From Candidatus Poribacteria bacterium (lineage in GTDB: Bacteria > Poribacteria > WGA-4E > WGA-3G), in NCBI GenBank assembly GCA_022822085.1, contig JAJECK010000102.1:1-64000 (forward strand): a DNA stretch of 64,000 bases, read 5' to 3'. The notes below the pieces were generated by a model, which saw only the letters and a program-made list of their open reading frames with translations, searched no databases and had not been told where the DNA came from. Of this stretch, positions 1-22,421 are shown piece by piece; positions within the stretch are counted from its first letter, which is position 1, and each line of letters opens with the position of its first letter. Position numbers and translations under genes: made by a program.

Positions 1-83
1 TGGTATTTATTCATAAGAGTTGAAAACGCTTGTTCATCACCGTCTAATGTTTGTTGAATTAAGGTAGAATCATCTTTTTTCAT
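1..83 (-). CDS. RNA polymerase sigma factor, 5' end only (runs off window)
   Basis: The reverse strand opens with an ATG at 83 and stays open to the window edge, giving 27 residues that begin MKKDDSTLIQQTLDGDEQAF. Eighteen of the 27 match the first 27 residues of the sigma factor at 1861-4944, without gaps, so this is the N-terminus of a paralogous ECF-type sigma factor (start of region 2). Whether it carries the same membrane segment and propeller cannot be seen. It follows two membrane-anchored proteins on the same strand, so the sigma gene may recur along this locus. Confidence 0.75.
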   Translation of the reverse strand, partial: MKKDDSTLIQQTLDGDEQAFSTLMNKY

Positions 84-208
84 GTGAGACCTCAAAAGCA
101 AAGTGGGACTTTATAATATATAGACGCGATTTTACGGTATAAAATTGCATATTTTTGAAAAAAATGCCAGGTGGGAGAGATCATTTGTATTCCGACCTAA
201 ATTCAAAC

Positions 209-874
209 TTATTGAGTTGGTTCTCGATCAGTCTTATAGACAAAACTCCAACTTCCATCTGCATTCTGTTTTATGCCTATAGCATCTTTAGGCAAAACGG
301 ATTCTCCACTCGTAGGTGTTTCATGTTTTCTGTCCAGCAAAATATCGTTCGACTTAAAAAGTTCATCCATTTCCTCATTTGTCACAAGAATCAAATCCGG
401 ATTTCCATCCAACCATCTTTTAGGGTTGTTTATAATCCGTTGCAACGTCTCATGTGCTATTTCTTGTTTTTCATACTGTTCAATTGTGATACCTTGTGAT
501 TCAAGGAAATTTTCAAATGCATCTTTAGTTTTAGTTGCCTTAAGTCCGTCTACTTCAGTGAGTTGTCTTTCAAATGAATTTATCACTTCTTCAACCGTAG
601 TTTTCTGAAAATGGTTTTCATTTAATCCATCCGTTGTCTCTATGTCGGTTATAGATGCATTTTTAACCTCACCTTCCGATGTTGTTACATCAACCTGAAC
701 GGCATCCGCATCATCAGATAAAGTTTGGATGTCCGATGTTTTTGTAGATTGGGTAGAGGACATCGGGGTCGTCCCAATATCATCAATAAAGCGTTGATGG
801 CTATAATTTAGGTAAAGCAGCCAGCAAACACATATAATGATAGTTAGAATCGCAGCTACGACTAATTTCTTCAT
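209..874 (-). CDS. Membrane-anchored hypothetical protein (221 aa)
   Basis: I do not recognise a family. Residues 1-22 form a hydrophobic segment after MKK and would anchor the protein in the inner membrane with the remainder outside the cytoplasm. The rest is acidic and Ser/Thr-rich up to about residue 85, then more ordered and helical (about 90-150). The C-terminus holds a short segment with GSWSFVYKTD that looks like a beta strand pair. A purine-rich ribosome binding site (AAAGGAA) precedes the ATG. The architecture matches the 270-aa protein at 1039-1851, and both lie between two sigma genes on the same strand. A role in controlling or responding to those sigma factors is inferred only from position. 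Confidence 0.65.
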   Translation of the reverse strand: MKKLVVAAILTIIICVCWLLYLNYSHQRFIDDIGTTPMSSTQSTKTSDIQTLSDDADAVQVDVTTSEGEVKNASITDIETTDGLNENHFQKTTVEEVINSFERQLTEVDGLKATKTKDAFENFLESQGITIEQYEKQEIAHETLQRIINNPKRWLDGNPDLILVTNEEMDELFKSNDILLDRKHETPTSGESVLPKDAIGIKQNADGSWSFVYKTDREPTQ

Positions 875-1038: not shown

Positions 1039-1851
1039 CTACTCAATTATGGTCGAATTTCCTTTATCCAAAATAAGCAGTTCCTTGCCAAGATCACCAG
1101 GATTTTCAATCGTATAAAGAACATTGTTCTTTGTACCTAAAGAATCTCTTGTTGATTGCGATGACGGGCTTGGATTAATGAACAAAAGCATCGGACTGCT
1201 TGGGTTCTCTGGGGGACGGTGAACTATTAATGCGCCATTATTAGCCTGCATCGTTCGGAGTGTCTGCAGGACAGGCTCGAATCTTTCCTGAACACTTTCA
1301 GGCAGGACGGTTGTTGATTCTTCCATTAGTTCAATGAGGCTGGCAAGAGACGCAACTCCTGATTCTATCATGTCAATAATCCTATAACTTGGATGAATAT
1401 CTTCCATGATTTCAGATTCCTGTTCAGTTAGTTTTGAAAATGCTTCCTTCTCATCGTCTTCTAAATCAAGACTTTCAATGAGTGTTGCCATTTCTTCCGC
1501 TTCAAGTTCGTCAAGAAAATCTAAAAAATCATCAAAACTTACCGCTTCCGCATCCTTTTCTTCATTGGCAGCGACTTCTGTTTCACTGTTTTTTGAGTCA
1601 GATTCCTCAAGAATTGGTCGCTCAACGCCATTATCTGTTTCAGATGGGGTTAATGTTGTTGGTTGTTGAAGTGTTTTATCACGTACAATCTTTTTTGTCT
1701 CCTGTTTTTGTATGATTGGAGCAGATTCTTCATTTAATGACTTTTTAAATCGTGAAACATCCCATTTATTATAGAACAAGAACCCAACACATAACGCAAT
1801 TGTCAAGAAACTTGCTATACCCAAATGTTTCCAACTATACTGTTTTATCAC
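1039..1851 (-). CDS. Membrane-anchored acidic hypothetical protein (270 aa)
   Basis: There is no family I recognise. A single hydrophobic segment lies at about residues 10-26 (LGIASFLTIALCVGFLFY). It is followed by a Glu/Asp/Ser/Thr-rich linker to about residue 100 and an acidic helical region with repeated Glu-Asp-Leu patterns (about 105-150). The C-terminal part is Pro/Ser-rich, and its last 30 residues look like a small beta unit. The gene starts 9 bases after the stop of the sigma/propeller gene upstream, so the two are almost certainly cotranscribed. By analogy with sigma/anti-sigma pairs it might bind the propeller or regulate release of the sigma domain, but no anti-sigma motif (for example a zinc-binding HxxxCxxC) is present. 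Confidence 0.7.
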   Translation of the reverse strand: MIKQYSWKHLGIASFLTIALCVGFLFYNKWDVSRFKKSLNEESAPIIQKQETKKIVRDKTLQQPTTLTPSETDNGVERPILEESDSKNSETEVAANEEKDAEAVSFDDFLDFLDELEAEEMATLIESLDLEDDEKEAFSKLTEQESEIMEDIHPSYRIIDMIESGVASLASLIELMEESTTVLPESVQERFEPVLQTLRTMQANNGALIVHRPPENPSSPMLLFINPSPSSQSTRDSLGTKNNVLYTIENPGDLGKELLILDKGNSTIIE

Positions 1852-1860
1852 GGTTTTACC

Positions 1861-4800
1861 TCATTGGTTTAGATTTGGCTTATTATTATTATGATTGTCA
1901 AGTGTAAAAGCGAATACTCCCTGTCCACTTGTACCAATGTATATCGTGTTCCCATCTACATCAAAAGTGGAAATTTTTTGTGTAATTGCAGGTGTCACCT
2001 GCTGCCATTTTTCAGAATTCTCGGAGAATTGATATATTATCTGATCGGACAGACCGTATACCTTTGATCCATCAACCGCAAGTCTTTCTATGAAAAGAAG
2101 TTTGTCTTGGGTGTTAGTGATGGCTTGCCAATCAATACCATTGATGGATCTTGCAACGCCTTTATTGGTTGCAACGTAGACGGCTTGCCCTACAGCAATG
2201 ACTTCCTTGAAATGGTTAACAGCAAATGGAAGAAATGCAGTAACATCTTTCCAAGTGTTTCCTTCATCAGTGGAGTGCATGAGCCTTCCATCCCGAGTGC
2301 CTACATAAACATCGTTATTCAAAACAGATAGTTTGAAACTAAAATCAAAAGGATTGACGAAATTACCTGAATCTACAACATTCTCAGGTTTACCTTTATC
2401 TATCAATCCAGTATCATACCATTCAGTAGTGCCAGGTTTCCATCTGAAGAGTCTTTGATTGTATTCAACAAAGTATGCAGTGGGACTCACAGCAAAACTT
2501 CCGTAAGATGATACCAATAACAAATACTTACTCTTGTTCTGGTTCGAATCGTCTATGTTATAATAAACACCTGCTTCTGATGGAATCTTAACATTCAGTT
2601 CTTCTTTCCAATCAATCTTATCTTTTTCCCAATCAATCTTATCAATCTTATTTTTTTCTATTAAAATTGCATTCGGATTTTCTCTGTGCTTTAGACCAAA
2701 ATCTGGCACATTATGAATTTCTTGCAAACTATTCGTTTCTTGTGAAAGTCTGTAAAGTTTAGGAGAGAAACTATTATGGTTGATTGCATATAGGTTATCA
2801 TCATACTCTAAAATGCGGGAGTATGTATCGGCATCTCCAGCAACTGATATCCACGTTTCTCCCGTGTCGGAGGAACTTAACACCATGTGTTCTCCGATAT
2901 TTCCATAGAGGTTGCTGTTTATTGAATACAGTTGGTGAACAAATGTAGAGATAAGTCCAGCATTAAAGTTATGCCATGTTCTACTATCTATAGTTGTTTT
3001 ATGAATACCGGATAGTCCACTTCTATAGATAGATCCATCAGTCAATAATACTGCCCCCGATACATTATGGTTATTACCTATATCACCTAACTTTGTCCAA
3101 GTCTGTCCAGTATCCACTGTAAATGCATGGTATTTTCCAGCAACTATCAAAATGCTATCTCCAGTTGCAGCTAAACGGATAGCCGGACTCTCCATGAAAA
3201 CTGCCTCATTAAATGAAGCCGCAACTACACGTCCTGAGTTGTATTTTCTATCCTTCGTATTCAGTTTCGGCTTGATATTATGCCAGGTATCCCCCATGTC
3301 CTCCGAGTGATAAAGTGACCATTCAGCCGAAACTGGAATAAAATGCCTACCAACATCTTTTATCAACCGTACTGCTACATACAAATGCTTTTCTGTGGCT
3401 ACTATAGCTGATACATCCAGATAATGTCCTTGTTCTTTATCACTGTCAACTGACACTTGTTCCCAAACATTGTCCTTGAGACGGAATAAACCGTTGTGAG
3501 TCCCAACAAAAACGGTGTTTTGTATTGTACCAATTGTACGGAGTTTTACACCTATCATCCCATCAGGTAATGGTGTCCAGGTTTTCCCAAAATCGTCTGT
3601 TCTAAATACACCCCTTGTGTAAGCGATATAGATTCTCATATCAGAATCAGTTCCACTGTCACCATCGGTCAATACCATTCCTACAAGCCATCCATCAATC
3701 TTTTTTAAACCACCACAGAACGTCTCCCAGGTTTCACCCCTATCTGTTGATTTCAATATCTCAGTATCGGTAACAAGGTAAAGCGTTCCTTTTCTTTCTG
3801 CAACAGGCCACCACCATAGGTTATCTTGTAGTGGCGGGGACGGACCTTTGATAGTATTTATGAGTTTCCATGCGGAACGATCATCACTCAGTCTGTATAG
3901 ACCATTTAATGTACCTGCATATACATCATTTGTGGTAGAAAATAGAGTCGATATCGCACCACCTACTGGTCCTTTCGTTTGAACCCACTGTGAATTAGAT
4001 TTTGTTACATTATTATCCTCGACATGTGCTGAAGCAAACACCGATGCATCTGGCGTTTGTCCAGGACTCTGACTCTCACTAACAATGTTAGATTGCCCAA
4101 TTTGAGGTCGGTTTGCTGGTTTTTCTGATGTATCCATAACAATTTGGGCATCAACTATTTCAATAGTAGATTCTGATGCAGCATCTAAACTATACGGTTG
4201 CTGATAACGAACTTGACTTTGCATGCCAATCCCTAATAGAAATAGGACTAATATTGAAGAGGCAGCTGATAATGCCCATGGAACAAAAGGTTTTCCAGTG
4301 GGGGATGCCGTTGGTTTTAGTTGTGAAATTCTTTTCATTATGTTTTCTGTAAATTGTGTTGGGAGTTGGAAACTGTTAAGGTTTTCTTTAATCATTGCTT
4401 CCTCTTTCTTTAATCGGTTCCGTGCGCGGCTTAACCTGCTTCTGATTGTATTTGATGACACACCGAGAAATTCACTAATAGATTCGCATGACATTTCTCC
4501 AAGGTAGTGAAGTGTCATCACTGTGCGTTCACTCTCTGGCAGCTTCTTCAGTAGGTTTCGGACTAATTCCCGTCGAGATTCATCCGCATCCGCTTCACGT
4601 TGTTCTTCAACATAAGATGTATATGCCACTTGTTCCACCTCTTTACTGTCAACTGTCTCTAAGGATTGGACAGGTATACGTTTCTTTCTACACCATGCAT
4701 AACATAGACGAGTGGCAATCACATAAAGCCATCCAGAAAACAAGTTATGATTTTTCAATGTTTCGAGGCTTTGGTATGCTTTGAGAAATGCATCTTGTGT

Positions 4801-4944
4801 GATTTCTTGGGCAATATGAAAATCACCTATTTTTTGCCATACCAGTGCATGCACACCTTTTTGGTATTTTTCAACCAATGTTGTGAACGCAGATTGGTCC
4901 CCGTCTAATGTTCGTTGAATTAGCTCAGTATCCTTCTTTTTCAT
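1861..4944 (-). CDS. ECF-type sigma factor fused through one membrane segment to a BNR/Asp-box beta-propeller
   Basis: The 1027-aa product combines three parts. Residues about 10-80 are sigma region 2 and about 125-180 region 4, with the helix-turn-helix LGVSSNTIRSRLSRARNRL. Residues about 221-241 are strongly hydrophobic and would cross the inner membrane once, preceded by a stretch like the membrane-proximal part of anti-sigma factors. From about 330 to the end there are repeated Asp-box motifs of the S/T-x-D-x-G-x-T-W type, at about 400, 450, 550, 612, 693 and 893, typical of BNR/sortilin/Ycf48-like propellers. The predicted topology puts the sigma domain in the cytoplasm and the propeller outside. 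An ordinary ECF sigma is about 170-200 aa. GGAGG lies just upstream of the ATG. A sensor that tethers its own sigma factor is inferred; the target regulon is unknown. Confidence 0.85.
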   Translation of the reverse strand: MKKKDTELIQRTLDGDQSAFTTLVEKYQKGVHALVWQKIGDFHIAQEITQDAFLKAYQSLETLKNHNLFSGWLYVIATRLCYAWCRKKRIPVQSLETVDSKEVEQVAYTSYVEEQREADADESRRELVRNLLKKLPESERTVMTLHYLGEMSCESISEFLGVSSNTIRSRLSRARNRLKKEEAMIKENLNSFQLPTQFTENIMKRISQLKPTASPTGKPFVPWALSAASSILVLFLLGIGMQSQVRYQQPYSLDAASESTIEIVDAQIVMDTSEKPANRPQIGQSNIVSESQSPGQTPDASVFASAHVEDNNVTKSNSQWVQTKGPVGGAISTLFSTTNDVYAGTLNGLYRLSDDRSAWKLINTIKGPSPPLQDNLWWWPVAERKGTLYLVTDTEILKSTDRGETWETFCGGLKKIDGWLVGMVLTDGDSGTDSDMRIYIAYTRGVFRTDDFGKTWTPLPDGMIGVKLRTIGTIQNTVFVGTHNGLFRLKDNVWEQVSVDSDKEQGHYLDVSAIVATEKHLYVAVRLIKDVGRHFIPVSAEWSLYHSEDMGDTWHNIKPKLNTKDRKYNSGRVVAASFNEAVFMESPAIRLAATGDSILIVAGKYHAFTVDTGQTWTKLGDIGNNHNVSGAVLLTDGSIYRSGLSGIHKTTIDSRTWHNFNAGLISTFVHQLYSINSNLYGNIGEHMVLSSSDTGETWISVAGDADTYSRILEYDDNLYAINHNSFSPKLYRLSQETNSLQEIHNVPDFGLKHRENPNAILIEKNKIDKIDWEKDKIDWKEELNVKIPSEAGVYYNIDDSNQNKSKYLLLVSSYGSFAVSPTAYFVEYNQRLFRWKPGTTEWYDTGLIDKGKPENVVDSGNFVNPFDFSFKLSVLNNDVYVGTRDGRLMHSTDEGNTWKDVTAFLPFAVNHFKEVIAVGQAVYVATNKGVARSINGIDWQAITNTQDKLLFIERLAVDGSKVYGLSDQIIYQFSENSEKWQQVTPAITQKISTFDVDGNTIYIGTSGQGVFAFTLDNHNNNKPNLNQ

Positions 4945-5169
4945 AGGAATCCTCCGGAGTAATTACTTCCCTTGTTTAATTAGACGCGTCCCGTAAGATG
5001 TATTGTTGCATTATTTTTTTATGAAATTTGAAACGAGATATGCTGATTCTCCTGATTGATATTCATAAATATTTTCAATTTGATGTTAATTGTGTTATAC
5101 TTTAACATAAGATCACATTCAATCTATATGATTTTATAGAATTGTTTATTCACTTGTAGGAGGCGTTGA

Positions 5170-8413: not shown

Positions 8414-11400
8414 ATGGCAGAAGCGTCAATTGAAATTTACGGCGCAAGAGAACATAACCTAAAAAATATAGATATTAGCCTGCCTAAAGATAAACTTATT
8501 GTCTTCACTGGGGTTAGTGGTTCAGGGAAATCTTCACTTGCAATTGATACATTATATGCAGAGGGACAAAGACGATATATTGAATCACTTTCAGCGTATG
8601 CACGCCAGTTTTTAGGACAACTCGGTAAGGCAGAAGTAGACAAGATAGTAGGTTTATCCCCCTCAATAGCGATTGATCAAGGGTCATCAGGTCACAATCC
8701 AAGATCAACGGTTGCCACTGTCACAGAAATATACGATTACCTTCGTGTACTATTTGCACGAGCAGGCCAATTCCATTGTCTTGAATGTGGGCAGTTAGTC
8801 GGATCGCAGACAATAGCCGACATAGTATCACATATCCTCAATTTTCCACCACGTACCCGTCTTATGATATTAGCTCCAATTGTTAGAGGAAGACGGGGTG
8901 AGTATCGCAAAGAGCTATCTGACGCACGGAAGATGGGATTCATTCGTGCAAGAATTGACGGTGAAGTTCACGAGATCAGTTCCAATATCACACTCAATCC
9001 AAATCAACGTCATAACATTGATCTTGTAGTTGACAGAATAATTATCAAGGATGGAATTGATAGTCGTGTTGCAGAAGCTGTTGAAACAGCACTCTCTCTC
9101 GGTGATGATAGTCTGATAGTCAATGTTGTGTCGTCTGATAGTTCTAATTCAGGTAAAGGATCAGATGGAGAAGACCTGCTGTTCAGTCGACAATATGCCT
9201 GCACTGCATGTAATATAAGTTATGCTGTTCCCGAACCCCGCCATTTCTCATACAATAGTCCTTACGGTATGTGTAAACGCTGCAGAGGATTAGGTCTGCA
9301 AATGGCAATATCCCCCCAATTAATTGTAGTGGATGATTCACTTTCCATTATGGAAGGTGCATTAATCTTGTGGGAGAGACCTGGGTACCAGGAGAGGATA
9401 GTCTTACAGACATTAGCATCACACCTCAAATTCAAAATTAACACTCCTTGGAAAGATCTTTCACACGATCAACAACATGCGATATTGTACGGTACGGGTG
9501 ATACTGTGCTCTCATTTCGTGAACCTTCACAAGGTAAAAGTAAAAGACGTAGGAGACGTATTCGTGGGACATTCCAAGGGTTAATCCCTTCCTATGAAGA
9601 GCGTTTTCATTGGTTGAACGTTGATGAGGTTGGAGAATCACATCTCCCCGATTTCTTTGTAAAAGCCCCATGTCGAGAATGCAAGGGAACACGTTTAGAT
9701 AAATATGCAACAGGGGTTAAACTTGATGATATAGATATAACCGAAGTAATGGATATGTCTATTCAGGATGCAACATCCTTTTTTAATCGTCTTAAACTAT
9801 CTGAACGTCAAGAAGTTATAGCATCAGAACTCTTAAAAGAGATACGTACACGACTCGGTTTCCTCATGGATGTTGGGCTAGGTTATCTTACCTTATCACG
9901 TTCTGCACCAACATTATCGGGTGGTGAGGCACAACGTATAAGACTTGCAAGTCAAGTCGGTGCCGGGTTGCGTGATGTTACGTATGTGCTTGATGAACCC
10001 AGTATTGGACTACACCCACGCGACCATGCTGGTTTGCTAAAGACACTCATTAATCTAAGAAATCAAGGTAATACAGTCATTGTTGTAGAACACGATGAAG
10101 CGACAATGTTGGTAGCGGATCTGATCGTTGATTTCGGTCCGGGGGCTGGGATTAAAGGTGGAGAGATAACAGGAATTGGAACACCTGATCAATTAATAAA
10201 GGAAACAGATTCCCTTACAGCCCAATATTTGCGCGGAGATAAGGAGATAATCCATCCGGAGAAACGGCGCGAGAATGGTGATAAGTGGCTACAGATTTGC
10301 AATGCACGTCAAAACAACCTAAAAAGTATCAATCCCAAAATTCCGATAGGCACACTCTGTTGCGTAACAGGTGTTAGTGGGTCAGGGAAGAGTTCACTCA
10401 TTCATGAGATCCTATACAAAGCACTTGCAAGAGACTTAATGAAGGCAAAAACTGTACCAGGGGACTATGAAAAGATTCAGGGAATTGTTGATGGTAAGGC
10501 TGGACCAGTTTCAAAAGTTATTGACAAAATCATCAATATTGATATGTCTCCTATCGGACGTACACCACGTTCCAATCCTGCAACCTATACGAAAGTTTTT
10601 GATGCAATCCGAGCATTTTATACAAACTTACCGGACGCAAAATTACGTGGATATAAGCCGGGTCGATTTAGTTTCAATGTTACAGGTGGGAGATGTGAAG
10701 CCTGTACCGGCAACGGTGCTAAAAAAATCGACATGGGTATACTGGCAGACGTGTGGGTTGAATGTGAGGTATGCAACGGTAAAAGATATAACAATGAAAC
10801 TCTCACTATAAAATATAAAGATAAAAACATCTCTGATGTATTAGAGATGGATATTGAATCTGCTCTTGAACATTTTGCTGACCTACCGAAAATAGCAAAG
10901 GGTTTACAAGTACTTCACGACGTGGGTTTGGATTATATCAAACTTGGGCAACCTGCGCCAACACTATCCGGTGGAGAAGCTCAAAGAATAAAACTCTCAA
11001 AGGAACTTTCTAAACGGAGTACTGGCAAAACCTTATACATCCTTGATGAACCTACCACAGGTCTACACTTTGAAGATGTAAATAAATTGTTGACAATACT
11101 TCATAGATTAGTAGATGAAGGTAACACTGTTGTGGTTGTAGAACATAACCTTGAAGTAATAAATTCTGCTGATTATCTTATTGATTTAGGACCTGAAGGT
11201 GGTATAGACGGTGGTCAGATCGTCGCAGTTGGCACTCCCGAAGAAGTGAGAAATGTCCCAGAATCTTATACTGGACAGGCGTTGCAAGGTGAATATGATT
11301 TATGGAAATCAGTAGAATCTGAACCATCCGATAAAGAAAACGGGGACATCGCACAAGACCTTCTTGATCAGAAACAATCTGAAATGAGTAAATCAATTTT

Positions 11401-14137
11401 GGTACAAGGAGCAGAAGAAAATAATTTAAAGAATATTAATATTGAAATTCCTCACCAAAAATTGACGACATTAACGGGAGTCAGCGGATCAGGTAAGACA
11501 TCGCTGGCACTGGATACAATTTATGCTGAGGGACAACGTAGATACATTGAGACACTTAGCACTTATGCACGCCAATTTATAGGGAGTATGGATAAACCGA
11601 AAGTGTCTAAAATTGAAGGGTTGTCTCCTGCAATTGCTATAACTCACTCAAGTCCCAGCCAAAACCCACGTTCTACTGTGGCAACAATCACAGAACTTCA
11701 TGACGGATTACGTACTCTATATGCAAGATGGGGGAAACCACACTGTCCATCCTGTAAAGTAGAAGTCTTACCTCAAACAGCACAACAAATTGTCGAAAGA
11801 GTTTTCAAAGATCTGAAAGGGAAAAGAGTGGATGTACTATCACCGCTGACGAACTTTAAATCTTATGAAAACGATTCAGAAGTGGTTATAGGAGCAGAAA
11901 GAACACCGGGGTTAAAAGGTAATGAGGATTATTCTGACGCGTTTCGTAGATTACAACGTACCGGTTTTGCAAGAGTGCAAATTGATGGTGAGATATATAG
12001 ACTTGATGAAACACCTACAATACACAAACGCCGTCGACATGAAGTGTTTTTGGTCATAGATCGACTGAATCTCGTTGATGAGGAAAAAAGTCGGTTCACT
12101 GAGGCAGTAGAATTAGCACTTATAGAGAGTGAAGGATTTGTAATTATTGAGCCAAATGATAATAAAGAATTACTTGAGAGACATTTTTTCAGTGAACATG
12201 CAATGTGTTCTAAATGTGGTCGTAATTTTCCACAGCTAACACCACGACATTTTTCCTTCAACAATAAATTAGGGGCTTGCAGTTCTTGTGATGGAATTGG
12301 TAGAGCATTGACAGCGGATCAAACAATATGTGAAGCTTGTGATGGGACAAGATTGAATGAATTTCCACGTAATGTCAGATTTTCTGAGAAAACTATCGCA
12401 GAACTAATGGTAATGTCAATTGCTGAGATATCCAGGTTTTTCAGTACAAGAATTGAAACAATTGAGAAACATCTAACCACAACAACAGGAATTAAGGAAG
12501 TAGAAACAGAACATGATCAAGTGCGGGATGTTTCCACATCAAGAGCAACACATCCCAGATTACATATACACACATCGCCAGAATTTGAAGCACAACTATT
12601 ACGTCAAATTCAGTTCCGTCTCAGATTTTTAGAAGACATCGGTCTGGGATACCTCGGTTTAGACCGAACTGCACCAACACTCTCCGGTGGAGAAATCCGG
12701 AGAATCCGCCTCGCAAGCCAACTCGGTACAGGACTTACAGGTGTGACCTACATCCTTGACGAACCGAGCATCGGATTGCACCCGCGTGATCAGGAACGGT
12801 TGATATTGGCGATGAAGGATTTACGGGATATTGGTAATAGTGTGCTTGTCGTTGAACATGATAGAGATACGATTATGTCTTCTGATCATGTTATTGATTT
12901 TGGTCCAAAAGCCGGAAAACAGGGGGGTGAGATAGTCGCTACGGGTACACCTAAAGCGTTTTCCAAAATCGATCCGATTCCAAGTGAACACACCTCATTT
13001 TCAGATAATGGCGATGATTCTTCTACACCAACCACATCGCAAACGATGAAAGGATTGACACAATCCTACCTTTCAAATGAAATGCAAATTCCGGTTCCTG
13101 CTGTCAGACGAAAAGGATCGGGAAAATTTCTAAAACTGTTTGGGGCAAAAACAAACAATCTAAAGAGCATTGATATTAATATTCCTTTCGGCACTCTAAC
13201 ATGCGTAACCGGTGTTTCAGGTTGTGGAAAGAGTTCATTAATTGAAGGAACTTTGCGTCCTGCATTAGAATCGCGCAAATCTATTCGACAAGGTAATCAA
13301 GATTCTGTGAATGACTATGGAAACGCGGAATACGATAAAATACAAGGAACAAGTGCAATTGAACGAATAATCCACATCGATCAGAAACCGATTGGAGAAA
13401 CACCTCGATCAAATCCGGCAACTTATACGGATCTATTCACCAAAATTCGTGAAATGTACGCCGAACTACCTGACGCAAAGCAGCGCGGTTTCAATCGTGG
13501 ACGATTTAGTTTCAACCTATCTTATGGGCAATGCGAAGTCTGTGATGGACAACGATACAATCGCGTTGAGATGCATTTCCTACCGGATGTTTGGATACCA
13601 TGTGAAAACTGCAATAGCACAGGCTATAATGCTGAAACACTAGAAGTGAAATACAAAGGAAAAAACATTGCCCAAGTGTTACAGATGACAGTACTTGAAG
13701 CACTTGAGTTGTTTGGTAACATCAACCGCATTAAACGTACCCTCCAAACTTTAGCAGATGTCGGTTTAGACTATATCCAATTAGGTCAATCAGCGACCAC
13801 GCTTTCTGGTGGAGAAGCACAACGCGTAAAACTTGCAAAAGAACTCGCAAGAAAGCAGACAGGAACTACACTTTATATCATGGACGAACCCACAACTGGT
13901 CTGCACTTTGACGATGTGCAAAAACTTCTCAATGTGTTAAATAAACTGGTCGATGCAGGTAATACTATCGTTGCTGTTGAACACAATTTGGATGTAATTA
14001 AATCTGCTGATTGGGTGATTGATTTAGGTCCTGAAGGGAGTGATGCAGGGGGGTTTCTTGTTGCTATGGGCACTCCAGAAGAAGTCGCCGAGGTTGAAGA
14101 ATCACATACCGCACGTTTCCTACGTGAGGTATTGTAG
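8414..14137 (+). CDS. uvrA: Double-length excinuclease ABC subunit A (tandem UvrA fusion)
   Basis: UvrA recognises DNA damage and loads UvrB in nucleotide excision repair. This 1907-aa protein contains two complete UvrA units head to tail: about 1-970 and about 990-1907. There are four ABC ATPase modules, with Walker [10 protein letters not shown] or close variants at about residues 33, 652, 1022 and 1599, and LSGGE signatures at about 501, 852, 1423 and 1797. Each unit has CxxC zinc pairs and a UvrB-binding segment. The insertion domain between the first zinc cysteines and the CKGTRL motif is about 130 residues in unit 1. In unit 2 it is reduced to under 10 residues ([20 protein letters not shown]). 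Normal UvrA is about 940-960 aa and works as a dimer. Chlamydiae also encode a fused UvrA of about 1790 aa. No frameshift or stop is seen across the joint. Confidence 0.95.
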
Positions 14138-20057: not shown

Positions 20058-20119
20058 TTGACAAAACCTATTTATCATGTATAATTTAACTTGGCAAAAC
20101 CTATTTTATCATGTATAAT
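20058..20119 (+). promoter_or_regulatory. Tandemly duplicated sigma-70 type promoter
   Basis: TTGACA (20058-20063) is followed after 16 bases by TATAAT (20080-20085). The next 30-odd bases repeat the block with TTGGCA (20091-20096), 17 bases and TATAAT (20114-20119). Both match the consensus closely. They lie 68-100 bases upstream of the first plausible ATG (20187) of the redox fusion gene. Confidence 0.75.
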
Positions 20120-20186
20120 GTCTGCAGATAGCATTTTCAAACGGTTACTTCTCTTCACAATTAACTCTGAAAAAGGCATTAGTAAG

Positions 20187-22421
20187 ATGAACCGACAACC
20201 TTGTTTGAGCAATTTAATTTGTTCAGTATCTAACAAGATATTAGTCTTTTTACACTGTCTACATATTGATGTGTTGCCTCGGTTTATACCCCTAAAATTG
20301 CCCCCCCCCCCCCGAACTAAGATCGTTAAATATAATAGTCTTGTTGCATATAATGTCCAGGAAATTCAGACGCGCAAAGGTCTCATTATTCACAAGGAAA
20401 TTGGGGCGGTACGGGGACAAGAAAATTTTTCGACACCTTTAACTTATTCACTCCTTTTTCTTCTTCTGCTGTTCATCTTTGTCCAGAACCCCGCAACGGC
20501 ACTAACAATCCTCTATTCCGGTGAAGAGCACGGACAACTCGACTTACACGGCTGCGGTACCGAACAGGTAGGTGGGTTAGCACATAGGCACACACTTATA
20601 TCAGATCTTCGCACAGATTTTAATGCAGTGTTAAATCTGCATACCGGAAATCTCATAGATGCAACAGATGAAAATGCTGAGTGGATTTATCAGATCGGTC
20701 TCTCCGCATTAGACGCAATGGAGGTGGATGTCCTATGTCTCGGGCCTAACGAGTTGTTTTTACCTTCAGAAACGCTTGCCGCGCTGCACGCTAACCATCC
20801 AAAAATTGCTATTACTTGTGCAAACGCAAATCAAGGTGTAGAAAGTCCATATCTGATTCAAACAGTCGATTCTCTGAATGTAGCAGTCATCTGCCTAATA
20901 TCTCAAACCTACACCCAAGTACTACCAAACGCTGAATTCGCGCAACCGAATACCGCTTTAGCGAAATTGCAAGCGGAAATTGTCAGTAAAAGTGATGTTG
21001 TGGTCGTTGTGTTTCACGCTACACAAGATGAGGCACAATCCTTAGCCGAAGCGGCACCGTGGATAGACGTTCTGATAGTTGCGCATAATGAACAACCGGC
21101 AACTTTGAACTGTGAACGTCTGCCTTGTGACAAGGAAACAGTCCTCGTAGCAAACGCAACCGAAGGTGCTGCTGTAGGGGCTTTAACAGTGGAGATTGAT
21201 AAAGAAGGAGTGGCACAAGCAGTTGAAAACCGATACTATAATGTCTCTGAAGAAATAAAGCCGAACACGACCATCTCCAATCTCTTAGAGGCTTATGTAA
21301 CGTTGACATCAACGTCAGAATCGTTTGACATCACTGGACATCAAGAGGTTGACAACGCAATACATATTGTCTATTTCCACAAACACGGTTGCCAAAAATG
21401 TGCGCGTGCCGTAAAAGTCCTCAAAAAATTAAAAGAGAAGTACCCGCAGATAGCCGTTGACCAACGCAACGCTAAAACAGAACAAGCACTCTTAGAAGCG
21501 ATGTGCACCCTCTACGATGTCCCTGAAATAAAACGGCTTACAACACCTGCTGTTTTTGTTGGTAATACTGCTTTGATAGGGGACGTGAATGAACAAGAAC
21601 TTGAAAATGCTATCCAAAAACATCTGACGACTGGCGTTGCATCCCGAATAAAGCAAGCTGAATTAGAATTAGAGACTGCCGAATCTGAAATCCTTAGTCG
21701 GTTTCACGGATTCGGTGTCTTGACTGTTGCTGGTGCGGGTCTGCTGGATGGGGTTAACCCGTGCGCGTTTGCAACCATCGTCTTTTTCATCTCTTATATG
21801 AATCTGGTCGGACGCGGACGGAAAGAGATGTTGATGGCAGGCGGTGCGTTTGCACTTGCGGTGTTTGGAACATACCTCCTCTTAGGATTAGGCACGCTTT
21901 CCTTCATGAACTACATCAACCAATTTTCGGGTATAGCGAAATGTGTCTATCTATTAGCAGCGACTGCCACATTTGCACTGGCAGGACTCAGTTTATATGA
22001 TGCTGTCAAGGCAAAGCAAGGTAAAACGAAAGAAGTCTTGTTGCAGCTACCTCGCGCATTGAAACAACGTATTCACAAAGTTATCCGAGAACAGACACGC
22101 ACCTCCGGTGTTATCGCAGGGGCATTGGTGATCGGATTTGTTATCTCGGCATTGGAACTTGTCTGTACAGGTCAAGTCTATCTACCGACATTAACATTTG
22201 TCGCAGGTATGGAAGGTATGCGTACCCACGCAATTGCCTATCTACTCCTATATAATTTGATGTTTATTGTGCCGCTCCTTGTTGTGTTCGGATGTGTCTA
22301 TTGGGGCACTACCAGCACGCAGCTTGGCGGTATTTTGCAAAAACACCTTGTCACCGTAAAAGTAGGAATGGGACTCGTGCTTTTCGGACTTGGTGCATGG
22401 TTGGTGCTAAGCGTTGTTTAG
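20187..22421 (+). CDS. Fusion of metallophosphatase-like domain, glutaredoxin-like domain and CcdA/DsbD-type membrane domain
   Basis: From the ATG at 20187 (the first after the tandem promoter) the frame gives 744 aa. A signal-peptide-like segment lies at about residues 85-105 (SLLFLLLLFIFVQNPATA), so the true start may be later. About 107-385 resembles the UshA/SoxB 5'-nucleotidase-type fold (ILYSGEEHGQLDLHGCG, LGPNELFLP, VAHNEQPA), but the classic metal ligands look incomplete. About 390-470 is glutaredoxin/thioredoxin-like with CQKC at about 401. About 510-744 has six hydrophobic segments with the two DsbD/CcdA redox cysteines, in GVNPCAF and ELVCTGQVYLPT. It would move electrons across the membrane to its own CxxC domain. 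A 13-C run interrupts the N-terminal part. Confidence 0.75.
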   Translation: MNRQPCLSNLICSVSNKILVFLHCLHIDVLPRFIPLKLPPPPRTKIVKYNSLVAYNVQEIQTRKGLIIHKEIGAVRGQENFSTPLTYSLLFLLLLFIFVQNPATALTILYSGEEHGQLDLHGCGTEQVGGLAHRHTLISDLRTDFNAVLNLHTGNLIDATDENAEWIYQIGLSALDAMEVDVLCLGPNELFLPSETLAALHANHPKIAITCANANQGVESPYLIQTVDSLNVAVICLISQTYTQVLPNAEFAQPNTALAKLQAEIVSKSDVVVVVFHATQDEAQSLAEAAPWIDVLIVAHNEQPATLNCERLPCDKETVLVANATEGAAVGALTVEIDKEGVAQAVENRYYNVSEEIKPNTTISNLLEAYVTLTSTSESFDITGHQEVDNAIHIVYFHKHGCQKCARAVKVLKKLKEKYPQIAVDQRNAKTEQALLEAMCTLYDVPEIKRLTTPAVFVGNTALIGDVNEQELENAIQKHLTTGVASRIKQAELELETAESEILSRFHGFGVLTVAGAGLLDGVNPCAFATIVFFISYMNLVGRGRKEMLMAGGAFALAVFGTYLLLGLGTLSFMNYINQFSGIAKCVYLLAATATFALAGLSLYDAVKAKQGKTKEVLLQLPRALKQRIHKVIREQTRTSGVIAGALVIGFVISALELVCTGQVYLPTLTFVAGMEGMRTHAIAYLLLYNLMFIVPLLVVFGCVYWGTTSTQLGGILQKHLVTVKVGMGLVLFGLGAWLVLSVV
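20301..20313 (+). repeat. Homopolymer of 13 C within the 5' part of the redox fusion gene
   Basis: Thirteen consecutive C lie 114 bases after the ATG at 20187 and encode Pro residues in the open frame. The tract keeps the long frame open; gain or loss of one base would shift it. Such tracts in AT-rich DNA are typical slipped-strand hotspots, but a homopolymer length error in the assembly is also possible. Confidence 0.8.

Follow-up and report, generated by a model that had tools for sequence, protein, structure and literature searches.

One-chain sigma factor, membrane anchor and putative double-propeller sensor in a Poribacteria gene family

Sigma factors that share one chain with a membrane segment and an ectodomain are already known, as are extracytoplasmic function (ECF) sigma factors with WD40 extensions (ECF57 and the planctomycete factors). 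In IutY of Pseudomonas putida, the sigma domain is followed by one transmembrane (TM) helix and a periplasmic anti-sigma domain, and release requires Prc and then RseP (PMC5411451). ECF52 of Streptomyces (SCO4117) is composed of a sigma domain, a zinc finger, a TM helix, a proline-rich stretch, and a carbohydrate-binding module (PMC5826349). The window, i.e., the whole stretch of 64,000 nucleotides of Candidatus Poribacteria DNA analyzed here, contains a gene, P0001, for a protein with a sigma domain, a TM helix, and a C-terminal propeller. A preliminary description had regarded the single membrane pass to an external propeller as the unusual point of this protein; the single pass to an external domain is not in itself unusual, since IutY (PMC5411451) and ECF52/SCO4117 (PMC5826349) are already so built.

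The same description had placed the gene at 1861–4944; these coordinates stand, but the strand is minus, with the ATG at 4944, the stop at 1861, and 1027 codons according to the ORF and its translation. The division into sigma domain, TM helix, and propeller agrees with Pfam, a hydropathy scan, and an AlphaFold2 model, and a search for the same three-part layout, which had been named as a check, returned more than 100 homologues, the window's genome having about 40 genes with the sigma–linker–TM chassis. A frameshift or fusion artefact, named beforehand as a danger to the description, is ruled out, as more than 100 intact full-length homologues keep the identical layout, and single-contig genomes are available as well. 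Sigma factor, membrane anchor, and a predicted double-propeller sensor are one protein, in dozens of Poribacteria genes. In close orthologues, dN/dS is about 0.07 for the sigma domain and 0.25–0.4 for the propeller, which indicates purifying selection on both halves; the sensor half is therefore seen, at the sequence level, to change fast and yet to stay under constraint. Within the genus, the sigma domains of orthologues are 80–91% identical and the propellers 36–47% identical. The features of the locus are collected in Table 1.

Table 1. Positions of the gene, its encoded domains, its promoter, and the neighboring genes in the window.
Feature	Position	Strand	Basis
Next sigma-sensor paralogue, first 27 codons (contig end cuts the rest)	3..83	minus	C32:3-83:-; 67% identity to residues 1-27
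Second ECF-type promoter, before next paralogue	118..152	minus	26.9 bits
Second downstream gene, 221 aa, one N-terminal TM	209..874	minus	ORF list
Downstream gene, 270 aa, one N-terminal TM	1039..1851	minus	Homologue in another array, L069:6162-6926
P0001, 1027-aa sigma-TM-propeller protein	1861..4944	minus	ORF and translation; >100 homologues of same architecture
Asp-box double beta-propeller (predicted), residues 318-1018	1891..3993	minus	AlphaFold2; Foldseek GH74; GH74 profile match
Variable low-confidence tether, residues 285-317	3994..4092	minus	pLDDT <50 across 209-316; conservation 0.50
Conserved juxtamembrane segment (extracytoplasmic, predicted), residues 242-284 (..QPYSLDA.SE.TIEIVDA..V...)	4093..4221	minus	Conservation, alignment
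Single transmembrane helix, residues 219-241	4222..4290	minus	Hydropathy and insertion-energy scan, family-wide
Conserved linker (cytoplasmic, predicted), residues 182-218 (...LPTQFTENIMKRISQLKP...KP), ~37 residues	4291..4401	minus	Paralogue alignment; conservation 0.65
Sigma region 4, residues 126-178, contains R168, S169, S172	4411..4569	minus	Pfam PF08281 1.2e-14; covariation
Sigma region 2, residues 23-89, contains R86	4678..4878	minus	Pfam PF04542 1.7e-11; covariation
GGAGG ribosome-binding site	4951..4955	minus	Read off upstream sequence
ECF-type promoter TAATGCAACA-N14-ACGCGTCTAATT, 33 nt before ATG	4978..5013	minus	26.8 bits vs family matrix

Residues 1–180, described earlier as ECF sigma regions 2 and 4, are matched by the Pfam models Sigma70_r2 (23–89) and Sigma70_r4_2 (126–178); ECF membership follows from Pfam and NCBIfam sigma70-ECF models above cut-off, with regions 2 and 4 only, and the PDB sequence matches are the ECF sigma factors SigW and sigma-E. 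Of the ECF57-type Cys pair, C81 in sigma 2 is nearly invariant, and no sigma 4 Cys is found among the invariant or nearly invariant positions. The linker that follows the sigma domain contains neither Cys nor His and is too short for any known anti-sigma domain, and Pfam gave no match to a zinc-finger (zf-HC2) or FecR anti-sigma domain in the window protein (FecR searched to E 1). Hydropathy and insertion-energy scales, applied in a custom script and not through TMHMM or Phobius, gave a favorable insertion energy at about residues 219–241 only (KD19 of 2.07 versus 1.30 for the next best scanning window), which recovers the TM segment proposed at 221–241, and 65 full-length relatives have their top membrane segment at this location, with a single exception. 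Family-wide, Lys/Arg versus Asp/Glu amount to 2.80 versus 1.15 on the N side of the helix and to 1.58 versus 1.66 on the C side. The Lys/Arg excess on the N side points to an N-in/C-out topology with the sigma domain inside; the single pass to an external propeller put forward earlier is consistent with one helix and this positive-inside bias. Beyond the membrane, segment 242–284 is more conserved (0.64) than the propeller (0.47) and is a candidate contact for a protease or regulator, and a candidate for site-1 recognition.

The C-terminal part had been described as an Asp-box propeller with six readable turns, and all six S/T-x-D-x-G-x-T-W boxes are present (starts at 399, 449, 547, 609, 691, and 891), far beyond chance, the mean count over 5000 shuffles being 0.0008 and the maximum 1. 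Pfam Sortilin-Vps10/BNR models match residues 378–525, and AlphaFold2 predicts beta strands over 333–1014 in a modelled double propeller. This model, built from an alignment with 65 relatives, is a moderate one for the propeller (mean pLDDT 74.6, pTM 0.64); the sigma domains and the blades at 333–1014 are confident, and segment 209–316 stays below a pLDDT of 50. Its approximately 49 strands would fit 12–14 blades, in keeping with the tandem seven-bladed Asp-box propellers of GH74 enzymes. Foldseek against the PDB placed GH74 xyloglucanases first (E 4.9e-22, TM-score by target 0.58); next came two Bacteroides sensors with a double propeller in the periplasm, BT4673 and BT4663 (E 1e-18 to 1e-20). 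A profile of the propeller alone has GH74 as its top match (1e-26). The window protein has L at residue 346, the putative counterpart of the first catalytic Asp of GH74 enzymes as judged by their TDxGG motif, and P/R/S/L/G/K, but not Asp, are among the commonest residues there in relatives; this comparison covers the first Asp only, the repeats being out of register in the profile alignment. Because residue 346 is not Asp, a binding role appears more likely than an enzymatic role for the propeller.

An AAC-like -35 element combined with a CGTC-like -10 element characterizes ECF-type promoters. The element upstream of P0001 exceeds the 99% null level of 10.3 bits and coincides with an exact whole-genome pattern match at C32:4982-5010:-. 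An ECF-type promoter (TGCAACC-N17/18-CGTC) was found above the 1% null level in 110 of the 125 non-redundant upstream regions of TM-type genes, where the null level derives from Markov-generated sequence and the matrix was learned and scored on one set. The common bipartite element consists of TTATGCAACC, a spacer of 13–14, and T(C/T)GCGTCACTAT, typically 30–50 nt 5' of the start codon. A loose pattern (TGCAACNN{16,17}CGTCW) scored barely above control (25 versus 13 in the whole genome, 13 versus 11 in G010) and was dropped; the matrix and a stricter pattern, TGCAMC-N17/18-CGTCWYTW, were adopted in its place. The strict pattern yielded 12 sites in the whole genome versus 1 for the reversed control, 11 of which precede family genes, including two for TM-less sisters, and the 12th precedes a one-TM protein adjoining a family gene. 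Across 659 kb of scanned neighborhoods, most other good sites lie before small one-TM or exported proteins in the same arrays.

Covariation was assessed in 112 non-redundant sigma/promoter pairs. Mutual information was strongest between R86 and a -10 base (z 11.9), and S172, S169, and R168 paired with -35 bases. Contrasts between nearest-neighbor matched pairs were used to take out most of the shared ancestry, and the three top-ranked of 1421 residue-base tests were then S169/-35 (p 1.5e-6), R86/-10 (p 5e-6), and R168/-35 (p 3.5e-5). By an alignment with sigma-E made by eye, the recognition helix of region 4 contains S169 and R168, whereas R86 belongs to region 2, in its C-terminal part. When the tested columns were left out of tree building, independent pairs changed in the same direction and almost never in the opposite one, the strong support resting on few independent changes (4–9 pairs per test on starred branches). 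The pair of A83 with the -10 base had strong mutual information but ranked 835 in matched pairs and is not claimed, and R168 with position 8 of the -35 element was unsupported on the tree. Because promoter bases vary in step with DNA-contact residues of the sigma factor whose gene lies immediately downstream, the covariation indicates cognate autoregulation, i.e., that each sigma would read the promoter of its own gene. No other result speaks as strongly for working sigma domains and for autoregulation of the genes.

The stop codon of the sigma gene is followed after a gap of about 10 nt by the start of the 270-aa gene, and the two are probably co-transcribed because of this short gap. Downstream neighbors on the same strand that are not sisters mostly have an N-terminal hydrophobic (TM or signal) segment. 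Short exported proteins with a YDFTFVRLKY motif recur between sigma-sensor genes in several genomes (L065:8614-9360, L075:9816-10544, L072:6576-7301), and a family of small one-TM proteins recurs inside the arrays (L066:3293-3613, L070:1670-2047, L071:1045-1413, L075:14266-14643), mostly behind promoters of the same type at 18–19 bits. Elsewhere in the window, the plus strand has a 1907-aa ORF of two tandem UvrA-like halves, fused copies of an ABC-ATPase excinuclease (8414–14137), and an ORF that apparently joins phosphoesterase-like, thioredoxin-like CxxC, and multi-TM CcdA/DsbD-like parts (20091–22421).

Residues 1–284 have 83 matches in the window's genome, which comprises 5.6 Mb in 158 contigs. 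By profile search, the linker–TM–juxtamembrane module occurs in 68 of 85 Poribacteria genomes at 1–58 copies each, reaching 58 in the window's family and 1–3 in other families of the same order; among these 85 genomes, none was found outside the order, and all named relatives are Candidatus Poribacteria. The single-contig genomes G080, G082, G083, G084, and G010 hold 13, 56, 31, 16, and 20 copies, which rules out assembly duplication behind the copy number; the count of one relative, G003, is inflated by two near-identical contigs. Architectures in the window's genome comprise 18 Asp-box and 9 WD40 ectodomains with a TM helix, 3 others with TM, 4 WD40 without TM, and 6 others without TM; order-level relatives already combine the chassis with Asp-box, WD40, or carboxypeptidase-regulatory-like ectodomains, as assigned by sequence motif. 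Architecture labels require 14 changes on the sigma-domain tree, compared with a minimum of 4 and a shuffled mean of 20.1, and the ectodomain types, as placed on this tree, are thus clustered but repeatedly exchanged on the chassis. Text searches, which reached few subscription papers, found no earlier description of this Poribacteria family.

Several relatives depart from the common plan. A 774-aa ORF of the window's genome (L032:7488-9812, C153:73487-75811) starts inside the conserved linker and encodes linker, TM helix, and C-terminal domain without a sigma domain; it may have decayed from a full copy, or may act in the membrane as a partner or decoy that lacks sigma. Close sigma sisters without TM and with other C-terminal parts are found at L051, L052, and L055 (C109, C108, and C13 of the same genome), these parts including a beta/gamma-crystallin-like domain (L055:4048-5394) and helical extensions without a Pfam name. 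At L181 (G039:C99), the C-terminus on the sigma–TM chassis is short and has a cytochrome-c-like motif (PPIPPALDDAQIQLFIDWI) at its end, in a partly masked stretch.

We propose, as a reasonably probable reading, that the protein is a one-chain transmembrane device in which a ligand triggers proteolytic release of the sigma factor and transcription of promoters of its own type. Its starting points, namely the domain anatomy, TM helix, family, promoter, covariation, and encoded proteases, are taken from sequence. The TM helix would anchor the N-terminal ECF sigma domain to the cytoplasmic membrane on its inner side, and the external GH74-like double propeller would bind a ligand, probably a glycan or protein. 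Binding would expose segment 242–284 to a Prc- or DegS-like site-1 protease, RseP would then cut within the membrane, and the freed sigma–linker fragment would join RNA polymerase and transcribe the TGCAACC-N17/18-CGTC promoters of its own gene, its sister genes, and neighboring exported-protein genes. Positive autoregulation would follow, together with co-induction of envelope proteins, represented in the window by the 270-aa one-TM protein. By analogy with IutY, intramembrane proteolysis is the most likely route of release; topology, ligand binding, proteolysis, and release are the parts that we infer. The genome encodes RseP (328 bits), two Prc, and many DegP/S-type proteases, which is weak evidence because these are common housekeeping proteases.

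According to the preliminary description, activation would need either proteolytic release or action from the membrane, and the need for one of them is consistent with the one-chain anatomy. The latter course, in which a sigma factor active while tethered would recruit polymerase to promoters near the membrane and the propeller would alter its oligomeric state or position, is unlikely. ToxR and CadC are single-pass regulators that act in this manner, no cleavage site is known in the window protein, and a linker of ~37 residues gives some reach; however, sigma must bind core polymerase before the promoter search, IutY, the one characterized sigma–TM fusion, needs RseP/Prc, and the conservation of the juxtamembrane segment is in keeping with contact to a protease or a partner. 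It is also quite unlikely that control is intramolecular, with the linker as a minimal anti-sigma element on sigma 2/4 that is relieved, uncut, by a pull or twist of the TM helix. In its favor are the strong conservation of the linker across paralogues, the helix predicted at 196–208, and the control of ECF41/ECF42 by C-terminal extensions (PMC8999054); against it, the linker has no Cys/His zinc-binding motif, falls short of the length of a class I anti-sigma domain, and is modelled with low confidence (pLDDT about 40–65).

A hydrophobic segment that stays uninserted would leave the propeller in the cytoplasm, as proposed for the WD40-extended ECF57 factors, and some paralogues in the same genome do carry WD40 propellers without TM. 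The constant place of the TM segment in nearly all aligned members, the positive-inside charge bias, the restriction of Asp-box ectodomains in the window's genome to the TM chassis, and the N-terminal TM or signal segments of most non-sigma downstream neighbors make this very improbable. Large copy number, tandem arrays, fast-evolving C-termini, and some truncated copies would suit a decaying or selfish tandem family without a signalling role, which is likewise very improbable, given that the reading frames are long and intact, that both halves have a dN/dS well below 1, and that the promoters are conserved and co-vary with sigma. A GH74-type surface glycoside hydrolase with an incidental sigma domain is hardly credible despite the matches by Foldseek and by profile, as the putative catalytic position is L and not Asp among the commonest residues of relatives, and the sigma domain is the best-conserved part of the protein.

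We put forward tentatively that Poribacteria may possess a nearly closed network of 20–58 sigma factors that are tethered to the membrane and whose propeller ectodomains can be interchanged. Because most family genes have a nearly identical promoter, external signals of many kinds would then act on the sensor genes themselves and on neighboring exported proteins, which would give a sponge symbiont a recognition repertoire that amplifies itself. The system would offer one specific way in which an abundant sponge symbiont may perceive its environment. Even without a culture of the organism, the promoter motif and the residue-base covariation open it to direct tests in a heterologous host, and it could be used for building orthogonal one-protein sensors.

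Compared with known systems, the protein resembles IutY (ECF243) in combining a cytosolic ECF sigma, one TM helix, and an extracytoplasmic C-terminal domain in one chain without a separate anti-sigma factor, and in being encoded in a genome that also has Prc and RseP. However, in IutY (374 aa), an outer-membrane receptor acts on an ectodomain that is a FecR-like anti-sigma domain (PMC5411451), whereas the window protein has a double propeller of 700 aa, no FecR match, and no adjoining receptor gene, and is one of tens of paralogues. ECF52 (SCO4117) of Streptomyces coelicolor similarly joins sigma, TM helix, and an external putative carbohydrate-binding domain, and its positive autoregulation and proposed proteolytic release (PMC5826349) are both proposed here too. 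It differs in the zinc-finger anti-sigma domain before the TM helix, as the window linker lacks zf-HC2, Cys, and His; in its small carbohydrate module after the proline-rich stretch, in place of an Asp-box propeller; and in its restriction to Actinobacteria (PMC5826349), the window family being of Poribacteria. ECF57 and the planctomycete WD40-extended factors share the C-terminal propeller and the many young paralogues; their WD40 extensions are described as serving protein contacts, and a Cys link from sigma 2 to sigma 4 is proposed for them (PMC8999054, PMC8567305). In contrast, the propeller of the window protein is of the Asp-box type behind a TM helix and has no WD40 match, although WD40 sisters on the same chassis exist.

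The Bacteroides hybrid two-component sensors BT4663 and BT4673 likewise join a periplasmic double propeller, TM, and transcription output in one chain; their output is a histidine kinase with an AraC-type domain and not a sigma factor. The fold match is to the propeller, and Pfam gave no match to a histidine kinase or response-regulator domain in the window protein. On the tentative network reading, the Poribacteria proteins would be a sigma-factor counterpart of the Bacteroides propeller sensors. GH74 xyloglucanases, with their tandem Asp-box propellers, are the closest solved fold, but the putative catalytic position of the window protein is not Asp, and we assign it a presumed sensor role. 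What is new relative to all of these is the GH74-like double-propeller sensor with no recognizable anti-sigma domain between sigma and membrane, and the tens of paralogues with exchanged ectodomains, nearly all of which have one shared self-type promoter: the tethered one-chain sigma sensors known so far are isolated cases, and Poribacteria have made tens of them per genome.
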